NCBI GenBank assembly: GCA_947460345.1 | Contig: CANHGM010000027.1 | Coordinates: forward strand, 1 to 33,599 | From: Bacteroidota bacterium | GTDB lineage: Bacteria; Bacteroidota; Bacteroidia; UKL13-3 | Length of the DNA stretch: 33,599 nucleotides | Direction of reading: 5' to 3' | Part shown: positions 5,174 through 6,274 of the stretch, in pieces | Numbering within the stretch: position 1 is the first letter of the stretch | How the letters are laid out: each line of letters opens with the position of its first letter | Notes under the pieces: model-generated | What the model was told of the DNA's origin: nothing | What the model saw: the letters and a program-made list of their open reading frames with translations, nothing else | Database searches by the model: none | Program-made: the position numbers and the translations under genes

Positions 5174-5302
5174 ATGGGAAAAGGTGACAATCGCAGCAAA
5201 AAAGGAAAAATTATCAACGGCTCATTTGGCGTAAAACGTTTAAAAAAGAGTTATATGATCAGTGCCGTAGCTAAAATAGAAGCTGAAGCTAAAACTAAAT
5301 AA
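5174..5302 (+). CDS. Small ribosomal protein THX
   Basis: A 42-residue, very basic protein beginning MGKGDNRSKKGKIINGSFGV. This is the hallmark of the Bacteroidota form of ribosomal protein THX, a peptide bound at the top of the small-subunit head. The conserved part is the first 30 residues; the tail (AEAEAKTK-like, Ala/Lys-rich) is variable in the family. It has its own promoter box and is followed by a strong terminator at 5331-5359, so it is probably a single-gene transcript. Confidence 0.88.
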   Translation: MGKGDNRSKKGKIINGSFGVKRLKKSYMISAVAKIEAEAKTK

Positions 5303-5330
5303 TCAGCTATATTTTTCTTAAAGAATTTAA

Positions 5331-5359
5331 ACCTCTCGATTTTTTCGGGAGGTTTTTTT
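5331..5359 (+). terminator. Rho-independent terminator after the THX gene
   Basis: The stem ACCTCTCGA (5331-5339) pairs with TCGGGAGGT (5345-5353) with one mismatch or wobble and a 5-nt T-rich loop, and runs into seven T residues (5353-5359). It lies 28 nt after the THX stop and closes the 3210-5302 transcripts. Confidence 0.85.
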
Positions 5360-5635
5360 GTTTATAGGCTGAATGGGGTTTTATAAGTGTAATGAGTATT
5401 ATATGGAGCAAAACTATTTGCCTATGCTTATAAAGAGACTGCTGCGAAACGAAGCCTGAAAGTCTGATATACTAGTAAAAAAAATCTATATATACTTTAA
5501 AGAAAACCCAGGAGGGGTGTGATATGATACACATATCATATATATATAAGTGCACTTCATAGCTTTTTTGAAATTGTGTCTTGGAAGTATATAAAACAAG
5601 TCTTTGACTTAAATATATATACCAGACTTTTGTAA

Positions 5636-5703
5636 CTCCGTTAACGCCAATCTAACGCGAGGAAGTTGTCTCCGTTAACGCCAATCTAACGCGAGGAAGT
5701 TGT
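5636..5703. repeat. 34-bp tandem direct repeat, two perfect copies
   Basis: Positions 5636-5669 and 5670-5703 are identical, and a third copy starts at 5704 (CGCCGTT against CTCCGTT) before turning into the 5702-5726 hairpin. Each unit contains TAACGC twice and can itself fold: CTCCGTTA pairs with TAACG(C)GAG with one bulged C around a 9-nt loop. The copies abut directly, without spacers. Confidence 0.85.
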
Positions 5704-5794
5704 CGCCGTTCTTCAAGAACGGTGACTTATATATATAAGCAAGGTCTGTGACCTGGGATTGTTGCTATAATGTTTTTTTTGATATATATATGAA

Positions 5795-5858
5795 TATATT
5801 TGCAACAATGAATTTGCGTCGTTCTATTAGGCATGAAGATCAAATATATTTTTTATAA
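5795..5858 (+). promoter_or_regulatory. Orphan promoter box with a 16-codon ORF
   Basis: TATATTTG (5795-5802) followed by CA is a perfect -7 box in the middle of the gene-free region. Five nucleotides later an ATG (5808) opens a 16-codon frame, MNLRRSIRHEDQIYFL, ending at 5858. The spacing resembles the near-leaderless genes in this window. It may drive a small RNA, a tiny peptide, or be a relic of a lost gene; nothing here decides between these. Confidence 0.3.
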
Positions 5859-6211
5859 CTAACTGTTTTACACTGGATAGATTTATATTCACAAAAAAAG
5901 AAATCAAGATATATTCATTGAAAGTTTAACACATTGTATAGAGAATAAAGACAAATATTATAGTTTAAAGCCGGGTTACAAACCCTGCATGTATGAATAT
6001 TACACCGTTCTTGAAGAACGACGATAACGCAGTTCTTTGATACATTAAAAAAGAAGTAATTTGAAAAGCCAATTGCTGATTGAAACGTTAAAATACCCCC
6101 ATATATATGCAAAAAGGGTGTATATGAAGCCAATGTAAATTGTTTTTAGAAGTTTATTGTGTTGATATATAGCAAACTAAGGCCATAAGGTGGTATAAAT
6201 GACAAATCCGC

Positions 6212-6245
6212 TTTGTATTTTATCGAAAATTTAGTAGTATATTTG
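6212..6245 (+). promoter_or_regulatory. Promoter of the 6275-9419 operon
   Basis: A -33-like TTTG at 6212-6215 and a perfect -7 box TATATTTG at 6238-6245 are separated by 22 bp, close to the Bacteroidota spacing. The ATG at 6275 follows after 29 nt. Confidence 0.6.
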
Positions 6246-6274
6246 CACTAGAAATTAATCTAACAACTTACCGA

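Follow-up and report, generated by a model that had tools for sequence, protein, structure and literature searches.

Introduction

According to the enzyme descriptions in PMC8266576 and PMC6006769, TnpA-REP enzymes bind hairpins folded from single-stranded DNA and cut the strand next to them. Subclass 2.6, which corresponds to group 5 of Bertels and occurs in Bacteroidota, is characterized in the classification of Quentin et al. (2018, PMC6006769) by a length of about 179 aa and by the motifs NH[LIV]H, WQ, and YIH[QN]NP. In the same classification, the hairpins on either side of these genes are atypical and lack GT[AG]G, and they recur at other places in the genome.

Here, we compare these systems with the interval 5360–6274 of a 33,599-nt stretch of Bacteroidota DNA (hereafter, the window; GenBank contig CANHGM010000027.1). 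Contigs such as C36 and C17 belong to the window's own genome (G000) unless another genome is named, and G004 is the genome of a relative from another genus of the same family. The segment 5699–6029 is very probably what remains of a transposable module built around a REP-associated tyrosine transposase (RAYT), in the form of a decayed, non-autonomous copy.

Results

The interval had been described as free of genes, and we found no credible intact gene in it. The only open reading frame of at least 60 aa lying inside (5915–6133, minus strand, TTG start) overlaps the right end of the element. Searches of the window for tRNA and tmRNA genes and with the curated covariance models of Rfam gave no match, and sigma-70-type promoters showed no excess.

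All five of the hairpins with 3-nt loops listed in the preliminary description (TTT, TCA, TGT, ACA, and TGA) are present. Hairpins with a perfect stem of at least 5 bp, a 3-nt loop, and at least two G/C were observed five times, as compared with 0.32 expected, and none of 500 dinucleotide shuffles reached this count. The common CGTTCTT–AAGAACG core reported for two of them was recovered as well: CCGTTCTTNAAGAACGG occurs twice in the window at up to three mismatches (0.03 expected). These two hairpins turned out to be the outer parts of one 58-nt inverted repeat that had been overlooked. Its arms (5699–5756 and 5971–6028) are 78% complementary and lie 214 nt apart, and four of the five triloop hairpins are paired features of this one structure. 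For the fifth, AAGTC-TTT-GACTT (5598–5610, plus strand, triloop scan), no copies were found; BLAST of the own genome gave no match covering 5598–5610.

The TA-rich palindromes noted earlier are real but not specific to the interval; TATATATA is found throughout the window (37 against 3 expected). For the most part, they reflect a peculiarity of the whole genome in this lineage. In G000 and in the genus g5, alternating AT tracts are over-represented. The raw counts of ATATATATATAT, taken whatever the G+C content of the genome, were 224 in G000, 92 and 71 in two g5 genomes, and 0–4 in seven other relatives. Inside the genes of the window, ATATAT occurs 104 times against 49 expected from synonymous-codon shuffles, i.e., twice as often, while AAAAAAAA occurs less often than in such shuffles (6 against 21).

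The element (5699–6029, plus strand) is RAYT-derived, hairpin-ended, and internally deleted, with the termini GTTGTCG on the left and CGATAACG on the right. BLAST homology to the C36 copy begins and ends within a few nucleotides of these borders (query 337–672 of the 915-nt interval). Each end consists of two hairpins, an outer one with a CCGTTCT-nnn-AGAACGG core and an inner one with a 5-bp stem and a loop of 3 nt; the two ends are mutually inverted. The left end is formed by the outer hairpin GTCGCCGTTCT-TCA-AGAACGGTGAC (5702–5726; 11 bp including one G·T; 5706–5722 in the triloop scan) and the inner hairpin AGGTC-TGT-GACCT (5742–5754). Its right counterpart contains the inner hairpin GGGTT-ACA-AACCC (5973–5985; GGGTT-TGT-AACCC when read inward) and the outer hairpin CGTTCT-TGA-AGAACG (6006–6020). 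All four were mapped on the plus strand by the triloop scan, folding, and covariation. As single-stranded DNA, the left end has a computed folding energy of −13.3 kcal/mol (z = −5.6) and the right end one of −10.5 kcal/mol (z = −3.2). The 5′ foot before the stem is GTT in nearly all ends of the family, with no GT[AG]G foot.

Between the two CGTTCTT hairpins lies the remnant of a transposase gene, also overlooked in the preliminary description. A tblastn search with the G004 RAYT yielded two pieces, 5808–5915 and 5893–5949, in two frames (E = 8.6e-12). Together, they define a plus-strand remnant (5808–5949) covering residues 1–47, with one in-frame stop and one frameshift. The interior of the C36 and window copies encodes MSL/MNLRRSIRHEDQIYFL..., which is the RAYT N-terminus. 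A Pfam search of the C36 version of the remnant alone gave no match; therefore, its RAYT identity required the comparison with a full-length relative. The window remnant lacks the HUH and WQ motifs as well as the catalytic tyrosine, and the window copy is thus unable to make the enzyme. Just upstream of the RAYT start, the TATATTTGCA box (5795–5804, plus strand) resembles the Bacteroidota −7 element and recurs as a direct repeat at 6238–6247, upstream of glgA. Judged from its sequence, this box may act as a promoter.

A RAYT gene with a complete catalytic core is found between the same ends in G004 (C5:8975–9683). Its product scores 102.8 bits against the NCBIfam model NF047646 REP_Tyr_transpos (cut-off 80), and the gene contains one in-frame TAG near the C-terminus. 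The motifs are NHIH, WQ, and YVHLNP in the G004 RAYT and NHIH, WQ, and YIHMNP in the C53 RAYT, the Y motif being near YIH[QN]NP but inexact. A PDB sequence search with the C53 RAYT gave no hit at E ≤ 0.01. Around the G004 module (L095:935–1770), a 22-nt direct repeat, ATTATATATCCATTCCCACACA, lies 13–25 nt outside the hairpins, and this is the sole copy flanked in such a way. Target duplications are unexpected for the RAYT enzyme class. At the window copy, we found no direct repeats of at least 8 nt that would mark a target duplication.

We extended the comparison to the 29 RAYT loci of the family with enough flank, the window's own genome included. Inverted-repeat flanks beyond all 100 shuffles were detected at 23 of these loci, and the mean number of hairpins per locus was 2.97, as compared with 0.29 expected. 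The hairpin sequences differ between most of the loci. These data bear on the idea that an unrelated DDE transposase mobilised the inverted ends, or that the ends are an invertible-promoter recombination site, with the RAYT fragment as a passenger. We consider this extremely unlikely. The ends are indeed long inverted repeats, but the same ends surround a RAYT gene in another genus, other RAYTs of the family have hairpin ends of their own, and the covariation described below suggests that the ends are recognized as folded single strands.

Among the family genomes examined, clear copies of the ends were found only in three genomes of one other genus (g5), and one further family genome showed a weak match to the gene part. 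In a left-end scan of 84,980 species, in which the own genome may be omitted, exact matches occurred only in two Bacteroidota metagenome-assembled genomes. An empty site at def–thx–glgA was not readable; in none of the relatives examined does thx or def precede glgA, and in the genus g5, this position is occupied by pgk.

We found further copies in the window's own genome, which comprises 3.0 Mb on 76 contigs and gave 34 BLAST matches. The best of these were on C36 (88% over 336 nt) and C2 (85% over 157 nt). The C36 copy has the same internal structure and deletion junction as the window copy and unrelated flanks, and the alignment halts at the element ends. The outer hairpin was counted at 24 places in the match list at up to two mismatches, and at up to three mismatches it occurs at 36 places, compared with 11 for a reversed control pattern. 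The family has about 14 left ends in this genome, the window included. Paired inverted left and right ends are present in the window, on C36, C62, C3, and C58, and twice on C28. No intact cognate RAYT was found in the own genome, and its other RAYTs, on C53 and C17, have hairpin ends unlike those of the window family. The complete RAYT gene on C17 (C17:51119–52529; L023:1620–3030) has CGAGACTGGAGTCTCG / GCAAGACTGGAGTCTTGC double hairpins at its flanks, and its module has a left end of the window's family on one side and a right end on the other, i.e., these are nested elements. In a chimera on C55 (C55:6249–6499; L030:1750–2000), a window-family left end is fused to the last part of the C53 RAYT module, namely its C-terminal codons and its right end.

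The spacing between the outer hairpins varies among the copies by internal deletion, from about 125 to 300 nt and often only about 125 nt, and the copies stand in unrelated contexts. The preliminary description had offered a structured RNA as one of three options. Such a non-coding RNA gene, with a length of 200–400 nt, the TATATTTGCA box as its promoter, and the hairpins as domains, would fit the stable hairpins, their covariation, and the promoter-like box at 5795–5804. Its middle, however, would be a transposase gene fragment, the copies would differ in length and context as above, and Rfam matched nothing in the window. We regard the RNA gene as very unlikely. It was the option of a mosaic of REP-like elements that the genomic copies and the compensatory changes favored.

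Covariation was analyzed on 33 ends from two genera. Compensatory changes are present in both hairpins, which are paired in 93.2% of the cells. Changes on both sides were found in 40 cells, compared with 15.4 in shuffles, and the covariation score was 0.250, compared with 0.164; for both measures, none of the 500 shuffles was as high. Sliding the pairing partners caused a sharp drop in the covariation measures. Six pairs carried double changes, a number weakly above the shuffles (48/500). Much of the covariation is a difference between left and right ends (GTC..GAC against ATC..GAT; AGGTC..GACCT against GGGTT..AACCC); therefore, the independent events are fewer than the cells. A chance local arrangement of inverted repeats, which the preliminary description had linked to a lack of copies and of compensatory changes, has a negligible probability. 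An AT-rich region does favor short palindromes, and the TA palindromes are background, but the hairpin excess stands against chance, and the genome-wide copies and the covariation refute it.

The 34-bp tandem repeat abuts the left end (5636–5703, plus strand). Its two perfect copies (5636–5669 and 5670–5703) are as previously reported, but the fold claimed for each is no better than chance (z = −0.5). The second copy enters the element by 5 nt (GTTGT). The core of the tandem, CGCCAATCTA (5679–5688, plus strand), stands exactly 10 nt before GTTGTC. The same spacing was found in 4 of 13 left ends, with 0, 0, 1, and 2 mismatches (chance 2.7e-4 per site). This fixed distance makes CGCCAATCTA a candidate for the outer tip of the element or else for a sequence preferred as the target. 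The tandem itself may have originated by slippage or end-processing at the left border.

The surroundings contain two further features on the plus strand. At 5452–5521, copies in the own genome reveal the decayed end of a second repeat family (AGCCT-GAA-AGTCT ... ACCC-AGG-AGGGGT), which is 76% identical to C3:42994–43061 (E = 5.6e-6) and has two more copies on C39. A weaker copy on C55 (72%) lies beside an IS200-like transposase gene. This gene (L104:1900–2520) has the Y---Q--HH signature of subclass 1.2 and AACCCCGAAGGGGTGA hairpins on its flanks, in contrast with subclass 1.2, described as generally without terminal hairpins. The second feature, outside the element, is a terminator-like hairpin after thx (5329–5355, terminator scan). 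The small gene in front of it (5174–5302) encodes the 30S ribosomal protein THX of 42 aa, under the 60-aa limit of the ORF list; its product scores 25.3 bits against Pfam Thx, just under the cut-off of 29.7.

This terminator is relevant to the question of whether REP-like sequences at this site were domesticated to regulate thx or glgA, e.g., as a terminator, an mRNA stabiliser, or a protein-binding site. The left outer hairpin (5702–5726) scores as terminator-like, and roles of this kind are reported for REPs of other bacteria in the account of PMC6006769. However, thx already has its terminator at 5329–5355, the loss of outer pairs from the right hairpin and the broken state of the gene resemble drift, and no conservation was seen at the locus in the relatives examined. 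Domestication is therefore unlikely, and the element at this site, with the thx terminator on one side and the glgA promoter on the other, is probably inert DNA.

Discussion

With the above results in hand, the puzzling gene-free kilobase is largely accounted for as transposon debris. Hairpins would form at the ends during replication or another single-stranding process. By analogy with the characterized enzymes, a RAYT supplied in trans would then recognise the outer hairpin with its conserved 5′ GTT foot, cut these ends, and move the segment between the two inverted ends. Copies short of most of the gene would have retained the ends and spread as small passengers. Movement of such deletion derivatives is suggested by two copies that share their deletion but not their flanks. 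The spread presumably ended when the cognate enzyme was lost or decayed in the own genome.

A broader and more tentative proposal is that in this Bacteroidota family, the group-5 RAYT modules behave like insertion sequences, each moving as one unit from end to end, and yield deleted passengers with both double-hairpin ends. We see this as possible, with the odds somewhat against it. Movement of this kind predicts what was found in the window and C36 copies, namely the same internal deletion within unrelated flanks. If true, it departs from the published view, in which RAYT genes and their REPs (REPtrons) are not transposed together as one unit. The left and right ends, with their compensatory changes, and the deleted copies make both whole-module movement and the part of the hairpin read by the transposases testable.

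The element shares several features with IS200/IS605 and their MITE-like deletion derivatives: an HUH-Y1 transposase, subterminal hairpins, and no target duplication evident at the window copy. It differs in that the protein here is a RAYT (REP_Tyr_transpos above the cut-off, transpos_IS200 below), and in that the ends of the window family are inverted repeats of each other. As in a REPIN or BIME (Bertels and Rainey 2011, PMC3116915), two inverted hairpin repeats make up a small, non-autonomous, dispersed intergenic unit. Unlike those, the window family has a low copy number (about 14 left ends), a longer spacer, a piece of a transposase gene, and no GTAG tag. The family works like a REPIN, but we do not file it as a classical one, since it lacks GTAG and is present in few copies.

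The closest match is subclass 2.6 as portrayed in PMC6006769. The RAYT of the parent form is about 180 aa long and has NHIH, WQ, and Y.H.NP motifs, matching that portrayal in all but the exact Y motif. The hairpin flanks have no GT[AG]G foot, and copies of the window-family hairpins occur elsewhere in the genome, again as described there. The differences are that the gene of the window copy is cut to its first 47 codons, and that the window family has two hairpins per end, a layout apparently outside the flank descriptions of that source. Placed by motifs and flank features, the window family is a new repeat family within a known kind, most likely RAYT group 5 (Bertels) or TnpA-REP subclass 2.6 of the Bacteroidota. 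It thus provides a described repeat family for a RAYT group about whose ends little is known ("atypical secondary structures").
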